A stretch of 64,000 nt of DNA from Thozetella sp. PMI_491 (lineage: Eukaryota > Ascomycota > Sordariomycetes > Chaetosphaeriales > Chaetosphaeriaceae), in assembly GCA_021432635.1 (NCBI GenBank), contig MU270099.1, positions 66,693 to 130,692 on the forward strand, written 5' to 3'. The notes under the pieces are model-generated. The model did not search any database and was not told the DNA's origin. It was given only the letters and a program-made list of their open reading frames with translations. This document shows, piece after piece, positions 40,623 to 58,529 of the stretch (its first letter is position 1; each line of letters opens with the position of its first letter). The translations under genes were made by a program, and so were the position numbers.

Positions 40623-42700
40623 CTAACTCTCAATGAACGTACCATGCGGACCTAACCCATACACCTGGGGCATATGAGCGCGCGCAACCTCCTCAAATGT
40701 ACGGCCGTCCAGAGCAACCAAGACACTGTGCGTGCCCTCGCGATCCACGACAATCGTCAGAACAACACCGTCATCCTCATCCTTAGCACCAGGCCGCTGT
40801 ATGAAGATGGGTTCACACGGACAGCTCTCCCCATCCGGCGGCTGCCACGTGCGCACCTCGCCGGTGAGCCAGTCCGACTTGGCCAGCCGGCTGAAGAAGG
40901 CGGCCTGCACCATCTTCAGTCCGTTGCCGAGCCGGCCAATCGGGACCGCCGTGCCGGGCGACGGGCCGCCGTTGCCGGCCGTAAAGTAGACGTAGCGGTA
41001 ATGCGGGTCCATGGAAGCGCTCTTGGCGATGCGCGGCAGCTCCGCCGCGACGCCGGGGATGGCGGCCGCGACGGTGACTCGGCGCGGCGGTTCGGAGACG
41101 CCGTCGAGCATTGGCTGGCAAACGTTGGCGAGCTCGTAGCGGATTAGAGTGCCGTCACGGAAGGGTGCGGCCGGGTCTAGGACGTTGCTTAAGTTGTACT
41201 CGCGATAAGGGACGGGGCCGCCTGCGTAGCTGCAGAGGTCGACGTGGATGTTGACCTCGTTGGTGCGCTTGTCGAGGTAATCGTAGGCGTTGACCGAGTG
41301 GAAGAACATGAAGCTGTCTCCAGCGTATGTTGCAACGCTGATGGTGGTAGAGCATGTCAGTTTTCGTGATAAGAAGTCATGCGTGAAATGTAAAGCTTAC
41401 AGTTTCCCCGAAAACTTATCCAGTACGAAGAAAAAGGTAGGAACATCGGGCTCGTACTCCAACATCTCCATGACCTGTTTTGTATTGTCGCTAACATCCA
41501 TATGCAAAGGCTAGATAGCATTAGTGCTATTCGGCCGAACATCCAAAACCGTGGTGGGATGCAAATAGATAGGTGGCGACTCACATTTCGAATGAATACC
41601 ACAAATCGGTCAGTCATGGCCATAGAGTGGATGTAGCATGGCCGACAAGGCAAAGGTGTCTTCCACAACACAGTTGCTGGGTTGGAGCGGATGTTCAAGC
41701 TAAAGATGGACAGAACCCCGTCGGGGGAGATGACGTAGTTGAAAGTCAACCCGCGTTTTCGGTCCTTGGGAGGGTGTGCACAGATGCCGTAGCCTTTGAG
41801 CTCGGGGTTGATGGCTGCGTAGGTCAAGAGCCGCTTTGGCTCAAGCGTCTTGGCATCACAGACTTGAAGCATGTTGAAGTCTGTGTGGACGAGGAACTGT
41901 GGCCAATGTCAGTCCCCGACCTATCTCCCATTCTAACTAGGAGACGAAGGCTTTGGCTTACCTCGTCCACCTCAGGATTCGCAGAAGCCGTGCCATTTGA
42001 GAGCGGGTTCGAGTCAGGGGGTAAATGCATCCCCCTCCTTGGCACGACATTCACGTTGACTTCATCGGGACCCATATGACCCTGGGGCAGGTATAACGAT
42101 TGCTGATCATACAAACCGTTAGCTTGACGGCGCTACACAAGTCTCGGGCTTCAAATATGCATGGCGAGGCAATATCGCGTACCTGCGCGCCCAGCAATGC
42201 CGAACACGGGTCTTGGGCATCCTTCAGCGGCGTGTTGGCATTCAGGCCAAACATAGTCGTGCTGACATAGCCATTCTCCTTAGCTTTCCGGACAACGCCT
42301 TCGGCAGTGTGGCGGCTGGAATAGAAGACCTCGCCATCGACCATTCGGAACTTGTGAAGTATGCCAAGGCCGTCAAAGAAGTGTTGTAATACGGCGTTCG
42401 GCTTGGAACCATCCTCCGAGAGCGGCACCGTGAAACGGCCGGAGCCGATGCTAGGATTCCCGTCAGAATCCCTGGCCAGGCTTCAGAACTGCCATTTTGA
42501 AGTAGTGGGAAGTCTCACCGCACAAAGGTCCCGCAGAGCCATTGCGGCCAGTTGCCAGCCGTGGCACACTTCACCTCTTCCCGCGTTTCGGGTGTGTCCC
42601 GGAGATACGGCGGCACATATTTGAGATCCGCCTCTTTGACGAAGTAGTTGTTGTAGAGAGCATTCGGGGTAGTAGGGGACGCCATGGCATGTGGAGACAT
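40623..42700 (-). CDS. Carotenoid-cleavage/stilbene dioxygenase family enzyme (RPE65-like)
   Basis: This non-haem Fe(II) dioxygenase cleaves a conjugated double bond; in fungi the family covers beta-carotene/apocarotenoid and stilbene (resveratrol, lignostilbene) cleavers. Six or more exons give roughly 600 residues. Exon 1 (42700 to about 42515) has LYNNYFVKEADL; the in-frame ATG at 42685 is an equally possible start. Later exons contain GSGRFTVPL, GEVFYSSRHTAEG and DEVNVNVVPRRG. The four iron-ligand histidines are visible in the family contexts ICAHPPKD (about 41778), CYIHSMAMTDR (about 41620), FFHSVNAYDYLD (about 41305-41270) and the C-terminal GLGPHGTFIES (about 40640). No stop or frameshift was seen. 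The neighbours (MFS carrier, gentisate-dioxygenase-like and FAH pseudogenes, salicylaldehyde-type ALDH) favour a stilbene or lignostilbene substrate over carotene, but this is inference from context. Confidence 0.85.
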
Positions 42701-43218: not shown

Positions 43219-44766
43219 ATGTCTTTGTCACCTTGGGTAAGCTAAACAGCTAGTGGCAGAGCAGTGATGAACGATGGCTGATTTCTCAGGACTGGCCGCT
43301 GTCGTGGCGCGCCGCCATCCTTCTGAATGTTGGCTTCTACAATTGGATGGGCAATGCGTTCGCGGCTGGCATCGCCGTCGTGTTTCCCCTTATTATCCCG
43401 GAGTTTGGCGTCTCCCAGGAAGATGCGTCCAGGCTATCGACGTACGCTCTGTTGACCCTGGGACTGTCGGTATGAGCGCAGAGGTCCCGCTACATTTGCT
43501 TTAACCACGTTTGCCCGCTGACCGGGTGCCTAGAATCTCTTCGCCCTCCCCCTGGCCTCGATTATTGGCAAGAGGTACTCGATCCTCCTGTCGCAGGCCG
43601 TCTTCCTCGCATCTTGCCTCTGGTCAGCTGAAGCCAAGACCTTCAACTCTCTGCTGGCTTCTCGCATCGTCGGCGGTTTGGCTGGCGGTATGATCGAGGC
43701 CCTTGGCCCAACGATTGTTGCCGAGACGTTCCGAGAACAAGCGCTGGCGCGAGCGATGGTGGTCTACGTTGGCCTCCTAGCAGCCGGATCTAATCTCGGC
43801 CCCTTCTTTGCTGGCTGCATCGCTCAGGGTCTCGGCAGCTGGCGGTGGTTCATGTGGGTGCTGGCCATCCTCACCGCAGCGAATCTCGTGGGGTCTATCC
43901 TCATGCTGCCAGAGACGACCCACCAAGAGGTCGAGTTCCAAGGCCCCATCGACATGGCGGACGAACCGCAAAAGGCCCAACAGCTGGAGACGGTTGAGAG
44001 AGCCGAGCCGGAAATACCGCCGGCCGGAACACTCAAGCGCGAGTGGGTCAAACGGTCTTTCACCGGCCGCTATGTCGCGTTTGACTGGAGGCAGGTGGCC
44101 ATCGCATTCCACAAGCCCTTCGAGCTGCTCCTAGCGCCACAAATCCTTGTCACCACACTGGTGTTTGGGCTGACAATCGGCTGGTCGGTCATCATCTCCA
44201 TCCTCGTCCCGACAGCCTACTCCCCACCGCCGTACTTGTGGGGCGCTTTCCAGGTGGGCCTCCTCAATCTCGCACCGTTCATTGGGATTGTTGTAGGTCT
44301 CCCCATCGGCGGGCCCTTGGCCGACATGCTGTCGAACCAGGCCTGGAAGAAGCGGGGAATGCATGACGCCGCCGATCGGTTCCCGGCACTGCTCCCCGGA
44401 GCCCTCCTTAGTCCGGCTGGATGCGTGCTTGTCGGTTTCGGCCTTCAGAGCCCGGACCGGTGGATCCTGCTCGCCGTAGGCTGGGCCATGCTCAGCATTG
44501 GCCTCACCGACTCAGCCAACGTGCTGCTCACCTATTGCGTCGACTGCTTGCCCTCGCGCGCGACACATATCGGAGCTCTCATCAACATCGCCAAGAATTG
44601 TGTTGCGTTTGGGACCTCTTATGCCTCTATCTCTTGGATGGAGAGCATGGGCCCGGTGAAGCAGTTCGCCACGATGGGCTCTATCCTTGGGGCCGCCTAC
44701 ATTGCCGCCATCATTGTCTGGGTATTTAACAAGCCGTTGTCACATCTTATCTCTAGGTTCGTCTAG
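43219..44766 (+). CDS. MFS transporter
   Basis: A plasma-membrane major facilitator, 476 residues, in three exons: 43219-43236, 43290-43469 and 43534-44766. The first exon codes only MSLSPW; introns of 53 and 64 nt have GTAAGC...CAG and GTATGA...TAG ends and restore DWPLSWRAAILLNVGFYNW and TLGLSNLFALPL. Hydrophobic segments fit about 12 helices, with a long charged central loop (QKAQQLETVERAEPE...TLKREWVKRS) between the two halves. Family-like pieces include LASRIVGGLAGGMIEALGPT and GPFFAGCIAQGLGSWRWFMWV. The gene diverges from the dioxygenase, so uptake or efflux of the aromatic substrate is inferred. The substrate itself cannot be read from the sequence. Confidence 0.9.
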
Positions 44767-47861: not shown

Positions 47862-49509
47862 ATGGTCTCCAACATCGTGCCTCTGATTATCCATGGAGAA
47901 TCTGTGGTTCTGGACGGATCCTTAAGTGAACGTGTCTTCATTCCCAATCCCGACATTACTCATCTTGATGACTGGAAAGCTCAAGGGGCAACCCGCGAGG
48001 TCTGCCTCCGTTCAATCGACTCCTGCGCACAAGCGTTCCCGGGGTGGAGGGGAACGCAGCCTTCCGACAGACAGCGGCTTTTCAACCAACTAGCTCGGGT
48101 GCGTACACATCGTCGGCCATCGCATCTGCCCACGAAACTATTCACGAGTGGCGGCAAGCTAACCATGAACCATCTGATAGCTGCTTCGAGAGAGCGCAGA
48201 CGAGCTCCGGGCCACGATCCAGGAGGAAATCGGATGCTCGGAGAAATGGGCCTCCATCAACGTGGAGGATACTATCGGCATGGTTGAACAGGTAGCTGCA
48301 ATTACAACCTCGGGAGTCTTGGCGGGAACGGTCCCCGAAGTAAGGGCCTCCGGCGCACATGCCGTCGTGTTCAAGGAGCCTCTGGGCGTGGTGTTGGGCA
48401 TCGCCCCGTGGAATGCACCGGCCGTCCTGGGGCTGCGCAGCGTTGCTGCTCCGGTAGCGGCGGGAAATTGTGCTATTTTCAAGGTCAGCAAGGCTCTAGC
48501 AGCTCTTTGCCTTGATCAACCTTTGTTACGCGAAGCATGCTTACTTCAAAAAAGGGATCGGAGCTGAGTCCGAGGACTCACTACTTCATAGCCAAGTCTT
48601 TCCAAGATGCTGGATTTCCTCCAGGGGTGGTCAACTTTCTCATCCACCGGCCCGAAGACGCACCAGAAATCTTTGAGACGCTCATCTCCCACCCCGCCAT
48701 ACGAAAGTGTAACTTCACCGGCTCCACGGCCGTCGGCAGACACATAGCGGCGCGTGCCGCCCAGTTTCTGAAGCCAGTCCTCCTGGAGCTGGGTGGGAAG
48801 AACTTCGCCATCGTCCTAGACGATGCCGACTTTAGTGTGGCCGCAGACGCGATCCTCGAGGGTGCTTTTCTGAACGTAGGTTACCTTCAGCGCTGCGGTA
48901 TGCTCTCTTAGTCCAGTGGCTAATTCGTTGACACCCCCTTCAAAGAGCGGCCAGATCTGTATGTCTACCGACCTAGTCTTGGTATCCGAGGCGAAAAAGT
49001 CACTTCTTTGCGAGATGCTCCGCGAGCGACTCAAGTCGGCATCCCAGAACGTCACACGGACCATCAACGCCAAAAGCGGCGCGCGAGTCAAGGCCCTGCA
49101 GGACGACGCCGTGAACAAAGGAGCCTCCGTCAGCACCGCTTCCGGCGGCGAAGGGCTGGAAGATGGTCTACTGATCGAAAATGTCAGCCCTGACATGGAC
49201 TTCTGGCACCAGGAAAGCTTCGGTCCAGTCGTCGGCATCGCGGTATACCGTGACATCAATGAGGCTGTGGCCATTGTGAACGATTGCAGCTACGGTTTGT
49301 CCACTGCTCTCTTCACTCAACCTACACTTTCGGCGCTAGAACTCGCTAGCCGGCTAAACGTAGGGGCTATACATATCAATGGGCCAACCGTTCACGACGA
49401 GCCAACATTGCCGCACGGAGGACACAAGGACAGTGGGTGGGGACGGTTCGGTGGGTGTTGGGGCTTTGAGGAGTTCCTACACACCAAGACTGTGATTATG
49501 AACCAATAA
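47862..49509 (+). CDS. Aldehyde dehydrogenase, salicylaldehyde-dehydrogenase-like
   Basis: An NAD(P)-dependent aldehyde dehydrogenase of 474 residues in four exons: 47862-48098, 48181-48483, 48555-48875 and 48946-49509. Splice ends GTGCGT...TAG, GTCAGC...AAG and GTAGGT...AAG all restore frame and motif. Catalytic and cofactor residues are present: PWNAP (Asn), IFK|GSELSP (Lys; the intron falls inside this motif), LELGGKN (general-base Glu), SGQICMST (nucleophile Cys) and QESFGPVVGI. The C-terminus has the class-typical HGGHKDSGWGRFGG and WGFEEFLHTKT, like bacterial and fungal salicylaldehyde/vanillin dehydrogenases. Unlike its neighbours it appears intact. It would oxidise a benzaldehyde released by stilbene cleavage, an inference from context. 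Confidence 0.85.
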
Positions 49510-54171: not shown

Positions 54172-57100
54172 TCAAGGTCCCTTGTATGGATTCGTGGCCG
54201 GCGGATTGATCAATGCGCCATAGTAATTAGGTGACGTGTCCGTGTTTGCCCCGGATAGATCCAACCAGTTCTTCTTATTCCCGCCTGCATTTCCAGCCCT
54301 TGGGATATTCTGCACGTCACACGCTGTCTTATGACTGTTCGGTATATATGGCTTGCGGGCAACCATGACATCTGGTGCTTCCAGGAATGTTGCCGTTAGC
54401 CCAGCTTCAACATGCCATTCAGTGTGACAGTGGAATAGTTGTATTCCAGGATTATCTGCCACAAAGCGAATCGTCGCGCCCGTATCGGGATAGACGATTA
54501 CAGTATCGCGGCGCATGGGGACAGCCGGTGTGGTATATAGACCAGGCCACATAGTACCGTCGCCGGCCCGACTAATCAGCTGGAAATTGTGGCCGTGTAA
54601 GTGGAAGGGATGTGCACGGGTGTCGTGGTTGTTGATATTAAGCTCAATGACGGCACCGAATGGGAGGATGACGGGGTTGACTTGACCATAGATTTGGGCG
54701 TTTAGAAGGTACTCGGCTGGGGCGCTCAAAGCAGTGAAGAAAGTGGGGACCTAAGGCATATTATTAGCGGAATGGGTGAGTCCGTAATTACACATGTCCC
54801 CCAATATAGGACTGACCTTCTGTGCAATATACGTCAAACCGTTGAACATGGAACGGGTCGAGCCCCAGGAGTTGGGGGCAAAGTCGGCTGTGAGATACAC
54901 GCTTTGAATCAATAGTCAGATTAACTCGCGTTTCACTTTAGAGGGCATGCTAGGATGCCAAAGATGTCGATGGAACCTACTATTGTACGTTGTCGGAGTC
55001 ATACATGGGGGTTTGGTCCCACGGCACAAGCGTTGAGTCGTCAAACGGCTGCGGCTGTAGAGTAAACGCCTTCGGTAGGCTCGCCGCTGTGTTATAGACC
55101 AGCCATCCGGTGCACTAAAAGGTTAGCCGTAGTTGGCCTAGAGTGAAGGTAGTTACTCACTGTCGGTTGCTGCCCTGGTGGGGTCTGCGAGCTGCCAAAC
55201 ATATCGGTCAAAAATTGCGATACGATAGCAAAATTTTGGCTGGCTGTTGCCTTTGCTCTGATGAGGACAGTATATCGTTGGGCAACGCCGACGAATAGCT
55301 GCTGTGTGTCCCATGGCTGGATATATACTCCGTCTACCTCAATGACAGTCATGGTGTGCTGGTCAAATTGGAGGTACTGCCCCGCAATAGCTCCCATATT
55401 GATTATGTGAAACTGATACAGCTTGCCTGGTACGATAGGAATCTGGACGTTCTGAGCCTCATTCATCAAACATGAATTTGGAACTGGCTCAGCGCCACTG
55501 GTGTTATTGGCGGATAGGAACCAGTTAATCAAGTACGGTGCCTCCACGTGATAGAAGTCGGACAACGTCAAAGTCACTTCGTTGTCTATGTTGCCGTAGT
55601 TTGCTAGTGCATTGTTGTCCCGAATTATAAGTGGGCCACGCAGACCGTCGACTAACAGCCTCTGTTAGCTAGAGAAATGGACCTTGTGCAGTATGGGATA
55701 CGAACTGTATTGTCCGCCAACATGAGAATGGTACCAATATGTACCGGACTGTGTGAAGGTGAACTCGTACACAAAAGCTGACCAATTATCAGTTCATTTG
55801 CCGATGCGACGTGGAGGGAGGGGGGAAGAGAGGCGAAGCCTACTTTGGCCGGGAGGTATGGGGCACTGTGTCACCATAGCCGGGCCATCCTCAAAGGTGG
55901 TGTTGATTTGGAACATGCCATGAAAATGAATAGCTGTGGTCTCGTTGCCAAGGTTGTTGACGACGTTGATCTTGACTGTGTCGCCAATATTGCCAACGAT
56001 CGGCGGACAAGGGAACTGACCGTTGATGCCGACGAGTGGACGATTGAATCCGTCGGGTGCTGCATTGACCCAGCCCACGCTCCAGTTCAAGGTAATTAGT
56101 TTTGGTTTGGGATTCGCTGTCACAGAGCCCCGAGGAGTTGTCGAAGTTGACGTCGATGACGTTTTGGTCGAAGATGAAGGTATGGATGTTGCCAGAGTGG
56201 ACATACTGCTAGAGGTGGGAGGCAGAGAAGACGATACGGTGGAGCTTATGCTCGATGACTTACTAGTCGTTGAACTACTCGTTTGGGTGGTGGTCGTACT
56301 TGTCTTGGGCGTCGCCACCTGGCTGCTAGAAACGCTGCTAGTCGTGGAAGTTTTGCCTGCAGTCGTGGACGAGCTGCTCGAAACGCCGCTACTCGTGGAT
56401 GTCTTGATAGAAGTCGTAGATGAAGCTGAAGATGTCGAAAGCGTGCTGACAGGAGGCGGCGGTCCCGGGGCGGCGACCGCGATGATTGTGTTTGTTTGAG
56501 AAGTGTATATCCTCCCGTTACCGAATACCGGGCGCTGAAACTTCTGAAGCCTCCCGGTTGCCCAGCCTAAGGCGATGGGCTGTAATGCTCCGTTTACCGG
56601 CACGGCTTTGTAGGCAACCAATCCCAAATTTATATCTGTCATCCAGACCTGGACACGCCTTTTAGCCGTCTCACTCGGACAATCGCAAGGTTTAGATGCA
56701 ACTTACCACACCCGTTCCGGCCTGACCGTTGTAGCTAGTGGTGGTAGGGTTCCCTTTGCATGCGCTACCCGTTGGCCCCGTCCCGGCCTGCGTAAAAACA
56801 GGATTTCCATTGCCGTCGAGACCGAATTTGAAGGCAGTCAGGACACCGTTTGTCGGACAGACATAGATGTATCCCCCGTCTAGAGGGTAGCTCCCAATAC
56901 CGCCAAAGAATGAGGCCCCGTTAAAGGCAATCTGCTGGAGAGCTGTAGAAGGTAAGCTTCGGCACACCAAACAAGTCAAATCTGAAAAGCATCGTGCCAA
57001 GAAGCGGAATACTAGGGAAGGAGATTAACTAACTCGCGTCCTTCCCACCATTGTTCGCGAAGCCGCCTAGATTGTCCGCGTTCATGATGTAAATCTAGAT

Positions 57101-58529
57101 TCGGCGTCTATGTTAGCATACCACTGACACCCAAGAGCATACGGATTCGTTCTTACGACACCATTCTTTCCAGATGCAACGGCGATCCCAGAGACCCCGA
57201 CTGCGGGAGCGTTGAATGTCCCTCGATCTAATAGCGCAACACCGGCTGATGAGATGTCCTGGTCGCCTCCGTTCAACTGTGTGTCGAAGTTGTAAGGTTC
57301 AAAGTAGTCTTGTTGTGTCAAGATGCCGGTGTTCGGGTCGACTGCAAAGTTGGCTACAACCTGTTCCAATGTGCTGATAGGGACCTTGCCATTGGCTGGC
57401 ACTCCTTGATTCTTGTTGACCCCGGGTCCAACGCCATTCCTGCATTTCATTGTCAGTTTGCCCATGTAGTCTTGCATCGTTACGAGAATTCCTACCCCGT
57501 TGTGAAGAAAACATTGCTCCCCTGTACCGCTAAGCCCATGCCACCTTGCCATATCCCGGCTTTTCCTCCAGTCTGCTTGTTAATGTCTGTCGGTTGGGGT
57601 GATGGTGCGCCTTTTATCTTGTCAGGAACCATCTTGGACATGATGTCCGTGAAGGGGATATGAGACTAACCTGGGGAAGCAACCATCGCCTGCATGGCGC
57701 CCACCGAGGCGGTCTTTGTGACAGTGACCAAAAGGCCAGTATAATTAAAGTTATCGCAGTGGCCACCAAAGCCCGCAATAATACTGTTGCCGATGATAGC
57801 GAGTCCTGGCCGCTGTAAGACAGTCCCTGCTACGAAGTATCGCGTCGGATCGTTCGTTGCCGGGCCACCGATGATAATCGGAAACCCCGGAACATCCGTT
57901 AAGTTCGGCAGCTTGACTGCGTAGGCCTTGTACTGACCTGAAAGCAGATAGTCACTGGATTAGTCCCTGGATATGATATGTGCGATAGAAAGCTTACCGT
58001 TGATGGTTCCACTCCCGGTTGCGGCACCATTCTTGTAGCCCTTGGAGAAGAAGTACATGATGTCCGTATTCGGATCTATAATCGGTGTTCCAGTGATGCC
58101 GATAGTTGGCGAAATGTCGCCACAGTTCGAATCTGCCGAAGAGAAAGGCGCGTCGAGAACCCGAGTGTACAGGACACTGCCCAAGAGCCCATCAAGCACA
58201 CGCACTATATTCTGGTTGGAGACGACAATCACCAATTCATTGGAGAAGCCTTTGGGGGTGTACGTCAGGGGCTTGGCGAGGAAAGCCTCGCTGGTATTGA
58301 ACTGCATTGTCCATGACTTGGTGAAGGTGCCCAGTTTGGAGGGATCGATGTTGTGGTAGGGCAGGTACCCCGATTGAAGAGAGTCCTTCTTTGTCAATAC
58401 CGACTCATGAAAACACTTAGTTGAAGGGCCGCGAAGGGAACCTACCGCATCTTGGTACTGATCTGTGAGACTCACAGCGCCGCACAGGGTCAGCAGGGGC
58501 AGAACACTGGCAGTACTGGTAAACCACAT
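54172..58529 (-). CDS. Secreted fusion: quinoprotein-like beta-propeller + Fet3-type multicopper oxidase
   Basis: One chain of roughly 1,150 residues in about a dozen exons. The start at 58529 gives a signal peptide ([20 protein letters not shown]). The N-terminal half resembles a PQQ-type beta-propeller, with [73 protein letters not shown] and [14 protein letters not shown]. Exon 56646 to about 55835 then runs without interruption from the last blade through a linker of about 110 Ser/Thr residues into the oxidase. Copper sites are [18 protein letters not shown] (about 55720), HPFHLHGH (about 54595) and [12 protein letters not shown] (about 54420). Residues matching the Fet3 iron-oxidation set appear: Glu in FYHVEA, Asp in FLTDMF and Asp in [10 protein letters not shown]. 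No C-terminal membrane anchor is seen (ends NPYKGP), so it is probably extracellular. Ferroxidase or laccase activity, and whether the propeller binds PQQ, remain inferences. Confidence 0.83.

Follow-up and report, generated by a model that had tools for sequence, protein, structure and literature searches.

The 64,000-nucleotide stretch of contig MU270099.1 of Thozetella sp. PMI_491 analysed here (the window, whose positions serve as coordinates throughout) carries on its minus strand, at 54172..58529, a gene predicted to join a beta-propeller, a Ser/Thr-rich linker and a multicopper oxidase in one protein. Our spliced model runs from an ATG at 58529 to a stop codon ending at 54172 and comprises 13 exons and 1200 codons, while a variant lacking the first intron has 12 exons and 1219 codons. 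The 12 inferred introns are all of the GT-AG type and measure 46-91 nucleotides. Pfam recognised three domains in the 1200-residue protein (Cu-oxidase_3, Cu-oxidase and Cu-oxidase_2) at E 4.6e-33 or better, and otherwise returned one match at chance level. The single fusion gene described in an earlier note, which a model had made from these letters alone, is thus recovered by the spliced model.

Exon 1 (58446..58529) encodes an N-terminus that looks by eye like a signal peptide, and exons 2 to 7 encode the propeller up to its last blade. Comparison with related propeller sequences placed the conserved Cys117 in exon 2 (57998..58388), His218-Cys219 in exon 3 (57671..57937), Trp268 in exon 4 (57496..57610), and Asn287, Asp345-x-Asp347 and Lys377 in exon 5 (57157..57439); exons 6 (57034..57094) and 7 (56707..56942) complete this part. 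Exon 8 (55844..56648), which sits within a 302-residue open frame, holds the last blade, the linker (56130..56471, residues 539-652, with Ser or Thr at 76 of the 114 positions) and the first copper motif (HFHG), so that the junction exon proposed earlier at about 56646-55835 stands with slightly different ends. The oxidase continues in exon 9 (55706..55777, HSH motif), exon 10 (55161..55651, with Glu826 at the position of Fet3 E185), exon 11 (54981..55114), exon 12 (54817..54901) and exon 13 (54172..54750), the last containing Asp1051, equivalent to Fet3 D409, and the copper motifs HPFHLHGH and HCHTEWH, all assigned by alignment to yeast Fet3p. Read by eye, the last residues contain no hydrophobic stretch or tail and no membrane anchor, in agreement with the earlier note, and the protein is apparently secreted.

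A propeller search of the fungus's own 72.3-Mb genome returned 35 exon matches, distributed over the window and 11 other loci, and at two of these 11 loci (C15 and C20) an oxidase lies downstream on the same strand. C15 (L029 2154-4907, minus strand) is a second fusion without stops: its propeller can be spliced without stops, and an open frame of 918 residues leads from the last blade through a Ser/Thr stretch, a WSC-like domain and a second Ser/Thr stretch into the oxidase, with the final few residues lying, by eye, in a small extra exon. The WSC-like match scored 25.3 bits, under the 27.8 cut-off. C20 (L030 2712-4913, minus strand) is a broken third fusion, of which only the last blade, the linker and the oxidase are left, with stops in each (at least three in frame) and an Arg replacing one copper-binding His. 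Because C15 carries a second stop-free fusion, the junction is confirmed as real and not an accident of assembly, which upholds the proposal that the fusion is encoded in the DNA. Gene structure was also compared: six of the seven propeller introns have a counterpart of equal position and phase in one or more of eight paralog models, although these models were built by aligning paralog DNA to the window protein and the agreement is not fully independent. The first propeller intron is common to C73 and the last to C15, C73 and C4, and the intron at residue 380, preceding exon 6, is private to the window copy.

At the other nine propeller loci the flanking sequence examined gave no match to an oxidase, and one of these loci (C48) is partial and contains stops. 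In all eight oxidase-free copies scanned, a WSC match was found downstream of the propeller. In C107, C62, C6 and the two C2 genes, propeller sequence and WSC match lie within a single open frame; in C9, C4 and C73 the match falls in a downstream frame of the same strand, where it probably belongs to the same protein as the propeller. Of four bacterial proteins scanned, three have clear immunoglobulin-like (ASH/HYDIN) domains after the propeller; in the own-genome frames scanned, which did not extend to the corresponding frames of C9 and C4, only C6 and, narrowly, C2a passed the cut-off, and none was found in C107, so that these domains are not ascribed to every copy.

In a propeller tree of 16 rows, from which, as from the alignment, the partial, stop-containing C48 was excluded, the window copy forms a group with C15 and with C73, which has no oxidase (100/99), and C4 joins them next (100/99); the eleven rows other than the five bacterial ones share a branch of their own (100/99). 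Two rows were flagged, L058 for its long branch and L044 for an unusual composition. The genome has 49 oxidase exon matches, and the oxidase tree comprised 12 own-genome rows and Fet3p, with C126 dropped as partial. In these 13 rows the oxidases of the three fusions make up a single clade (100/99), which lies next to that of Fet3p, C9a and C21 (100/99) and outside it. The simplest reading of both trees is that a propeller-WSC protein would have gained the oxidase, and that C73 would either have lost it again or have lacked it from the start.

The propeller half was difficult to classify directly. At E <= 1, Pfam detected no pyrroloquinoline quinone (PQQ) family in the window protein, searches of the PDB by sequence and by profile gave only chance matches, and PF01011 was without a match in this genome at E <= 0.001 when six frames were scanned exon by exon. 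Among ten own-genome rows scanned one by one, PQQ_2 and ACSF4-propeller appeared in three each at E 0.045 or worse, and an NCBIfam scan of the same rows detected BamB in one, at E 0.017. Since direct PQQ searches of the window protein failed, the fold assignment rests on bacterial relatives: the own-genome copies align with bacterial propellers at an hhalign E of 6.6e-93, two of four bacterial proteins scanned passed the PQQ_2 cut-off, and the structure model of one bacterial relative (L045) shows an eight-bladed quinoprotein/BamB fold that matches PQQ alcohol and methanol dehydrogenases and, equally strongly, non-catalytic BamB. The window propeller probably adopts the same eight-bladed fold. 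The term "quinoprotein-like" used earlier is therefore borne out through the relatives, but not by any PQQ family in the protein itself.

Altogether 138 propeller relatives were confirmed and 80 loci kept, 21 of which entered the bacterial alignment; no oxidase was detected within the flanks of the 80 loci except for one chance match (E 0.067). The family is common to this genome and to bacteria, including Acidobacteriota, Actinomycetota and Burkholderiaceae. The best match, L040 (NYXK01000007.1), comes from a contig in a metagenome-assembled genome of Deltaproteobacteria that looks fungal by eye, with introns and repeats; it encodes an intron-split propeller followed by what appear by eye to be WSC-like repeats, groups with own-genome C62 (87/97), and was excluded from the bacterial alignment. 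A scan of viral contigs gave three distant propeller loci.

In PQQ dehydrogenases a vicinal Cys-Cys pair lies over the cofactor, a Trp forms the floor of the pocket, and Glu, Asn, Asp and Arg or Lys have metal-binding or catalytic roles. We compared 31 propeller rows (10 own-genome and 21 bacterial) with five dehydrogenase rows at these positions. The Cys-Cys pair, present in all five dehydrogenases, was found in none of the 10 own-genome and none of the 21 bacterial rows, its first Cys aligning with a conserved Cys of the propeller rows, and no row has a Trp 5-8 residues past the invariant Trp, the place to which the alignment assigns the floor Trp of methanol dehydrogenase. The metal-site Glu position aligns, by eye, with a variable residue; near it, an Asp stands beside the His-Cys pair in every one of the 21 bacterial rows and in half of the ten own-genome rows, including the window copy, and the pair itself (His218-Cys219) occurs in all ten own-genome rows. 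The D-x-D motif and the Lys are present in 31 of 31 rows and the Asn in 30 of 31, with the alignment of the catalytic Asp being ambiguous. As the Cys-Cys pair and the floor Trp are missing, the propeller is, judged from these alignments, not a standard PQQ enzyme, although a conserved polar set is kept.

The oxidase half is better defined. Its closest solved structure is yeast Fet3p (1zpu, E 5.2e-111), and the alignment places ten His (720, 722, 764, 766, 1055, 1058, 1060, 1115, 1117 and 1121) and the type 1 (T1) Cys1116 at positions that we take to be those of the copper ligands, so that on sequence grounds the protein has the ten His and the T1 Cys of a four-copper multicopper oxidase. This half is related to Fet3, in keeping with the earlier note. 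For Fet3 residues we assume a numbering equal to the chain number plus 21, and the T1 Cys is then residue 484. The T1 axial position is occupied by Leu in the window copy and by Met in C15, where Met may, we presume, lower the redox potential. The claim that Fet3-like iron-oxidation residues are retained holds in part: E185 (E826) and D409 (D1051) are kept, the latter in both stop-free fusions, but D278, D283 (G924 at this position) and Y354 are missing from the window oxidase.

The literature on these residues is not uniform. According to passages of PMC3129051, E185, D283 and D409 are decisive and Y354 is less critical, and E185 and D409 are kept by roughly a third of the ferroxidase/laccase cluster; Phanerochaete Mco1 has only these two and is described with the stronger ferroxidase activity. 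The acidic pocket is given as E185, D283 and D409 in the portion available of PMC11817551, while that of PMC10382037 names D278 and Y354 as necessary for Fet3 ferroxidase activity and ties D283 to iron transfer to Ftr1. The window oxidase matches the ferroxidase/laccase pattern (E185 and D409 without D283) as the first of these sources outlines it. A genome-wide PF03239 scan found Ftr1 permease matches only at C9:524688-525254 and C21:916520-917436, each beside a gene of the Fet3 clade (five candidates scored), and none on any contig bearing a fusion. Because D283 is lost and the only Ftr1 matches lie beside the C9 and C21 genes, the fusion is unlikely to be an iron-uptake ferroxidase, and the canonical Fet3 role in uptake was rejected on the same two observations.

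The explanation that we favour, with a probability of about 0.6, is that the gene encodes a multicopper oxidase of modular build that is secreted, stays in the cell wall or matrix and acts as a ferroxidase or phenol oxidase. The propeller, which is related to a family of WSC-bearing proteins, would be a non-redox targeting or binding platform connected to the oxidase by a long and probably O-glycosylated linker, and the enzyme would need no transmembrane helix like that of Fet3 to be retained in the wall or matrix. The T1 copper would take single electrons from Fe(II), from phenols or from both, and O2 would be reduced to water at the trinuclear centre. Secretion, wall targeting, the substrate and a propeller without cofactor are all parts of this scheme that we infer. 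A binding or targeting role is suggested because the propeller mostly occurs without an oxidase (nine of the 11 other loci) and is accompanied by WSC in the eight copies scanned; targeting by the propeller itself would be a further step. WSC modules are reported in glyoxal oxidases in a passage of PMC3620520, and a passage of PMC8400822 cites the WSC domain of an alcohol oxidase as binding wall polysaccharides and adding nothing to catalysis.

Several observations weigh against this explanation. The window protein has no WSC match (PF01822, Pfam at E <= 1), and wall binding by this copy would consequently need the propeller or the linker glycans. Moreover, D-x-D, Asn, Trp and Lys are near-invariant across the own-genome and bacterial rows, which suggests that the propeller keeps a functional site that a plain spacer would not need, and it may thus retain a site of unexplained function. 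The ferroxidase part of the claim is weak, given the loss of D278 and Y354, necessary according to the portion seen of PMC10382037, and of D283, decisive according to that of PMC3129051.

Among the alternatives, an Abr1/ChMCO1-type oxidase that would polymerise pigments or phenols in wall melanisation, with iron not being its natural substrate, is doubtful. The missing D278, D283 and Y354 and the absence, by eye, of an anchor would suit such an enzyme, both being features described for two ascomycete pigment-type enzymes in passages of PMC3129051, as would the Met at the T1 axial position of C15. In the same text, E185 is the only one of four residues that Abr1 retains, ChMCO1 having none of them, and the D409 kept in both stop-free fusions separates them from Abr1; besides, no melanin gene was recognised in the 10 frames scanned among the 20 open frames of the window that reach 200 codons. 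The reading of the locus as two separate genes, or as a mis-assembly, could appeal to the lack of transcript evidence, but one open exon crosses the junction, C15 crosses it in its 918-residue frame with the same last propeller intron, and C20 has the same order. It is highly improbable, and the stop-free C15 was the ground on which it was rejected.

A two-centre redox enzyme, in which PQQ or another redox cofactor sits in the propeller and electrons from a substrate oxidised there travel on to the T1 copper, appears improbable. The resemblance of the bacterial-relative model to PQQ alcohol and methanol dehydrogenases speaks for it, together with an hhalign match (E 1.8e-6, probability 89.7%) between the bacterial rows and rows of the methanol dehydrogenase type, the nearly universal D-x-D, Lys and Asn, and the Asp by the His-Cys pair. 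Set against these are the equally strong fold matches to non-catalytic BamB, a probability of only 29.6% when the own-genome rows are matched directly to PQQ rows, the absence of a PF01011 match in the genome at E <= 0.001, the variable residue at the metal-site Glu position, and the missing Cys-Cys pair and floor Trp. The coupling of a possible dehydrogenase-like domain to the oxidase, which the earlier note had entertained, consequently finds no support in these comparisons. Quite improbable in our assessment is a propeller that would be an undescribed catalytic or metal-binding domain, using the D-x-D/Asn/Lys site without the PQQ disulfide or stacking Trp and delivering electrons or metal ions to the oxidase; if true, such a transfer would make the protein a self-contained extracellular redox relay.

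Elsewhere in the window, a large nonribosomal peptide synthetase lies at 9523-33843 on the plus strand, with Condensation, AMP-binding and PP-binding domains in long open frames (two of four scanned). Between it and the fusion gene there are matches to an RPE65-type carotenoid oxygenase (40626-41396, minus strand), a major facilitator superfamily transporter (43534-44763, plus strand) and an aldehyde dehydrogenase (48880-49506, plus strand).

Compared with known systems, the window oxidase has all copper ligands, E185 and D409 in common with yeast Fet3p (1zpu; AA1_2 ferroxidases), but lacks D278, D283, Y354, the C-terminal anchor (by eye) and a nearby Ftr1 match, and it carries the propeller and linker in front. 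Phanerochaete Mco1, a ferroxidase/laccase, likewise keeps E185 and D409 without D283 as described in the accessible part of PMC3129051, where a propeller, present in the window protein, goes unmentioned for Mco1. Oxidases with WSC domains, namely glyoxal oxidase (AA5_1) and alcohol oxidase in passages of PMC3620520 and PMC8400822, combine an oxidase with WSC modules, and C15 has its WSC-like domain between propeller and oxidase, whereas the window copy has the propeller and no WSC match. PQQ alcohol and methanol dehydrogenases and BamB have the eight-bladed fold indicated by the bacterial-relative model; the propeller has neither the Cys-Cys pair nor the floor Trp where these align, and a dehydrogenase activity cannot be ascribed to it. 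In a literature search, a propeller-copper oxidase architecture was not described in titles and opening abstracts, nor in the available parts of PMC8400822, PMC3620520 and PMC7902709, in line with the earlier impression that it was not a known one, and it may already sit unremarked in fungal protein databases.

Our results suggest that fungal extracellular oxidases can be assembled by domain shuffling, since a Fet3-related oxidase, without anchor or permease partner, is joined here to a propeller (and, in C15, to a WSC-like module) that is otherwise found in WSC-bearing proteins. How an oxidase comes to be positioned in the wall can be tested with this arrangement, which also highlights the conserved site of a propeller family common to fungi and bacteria.

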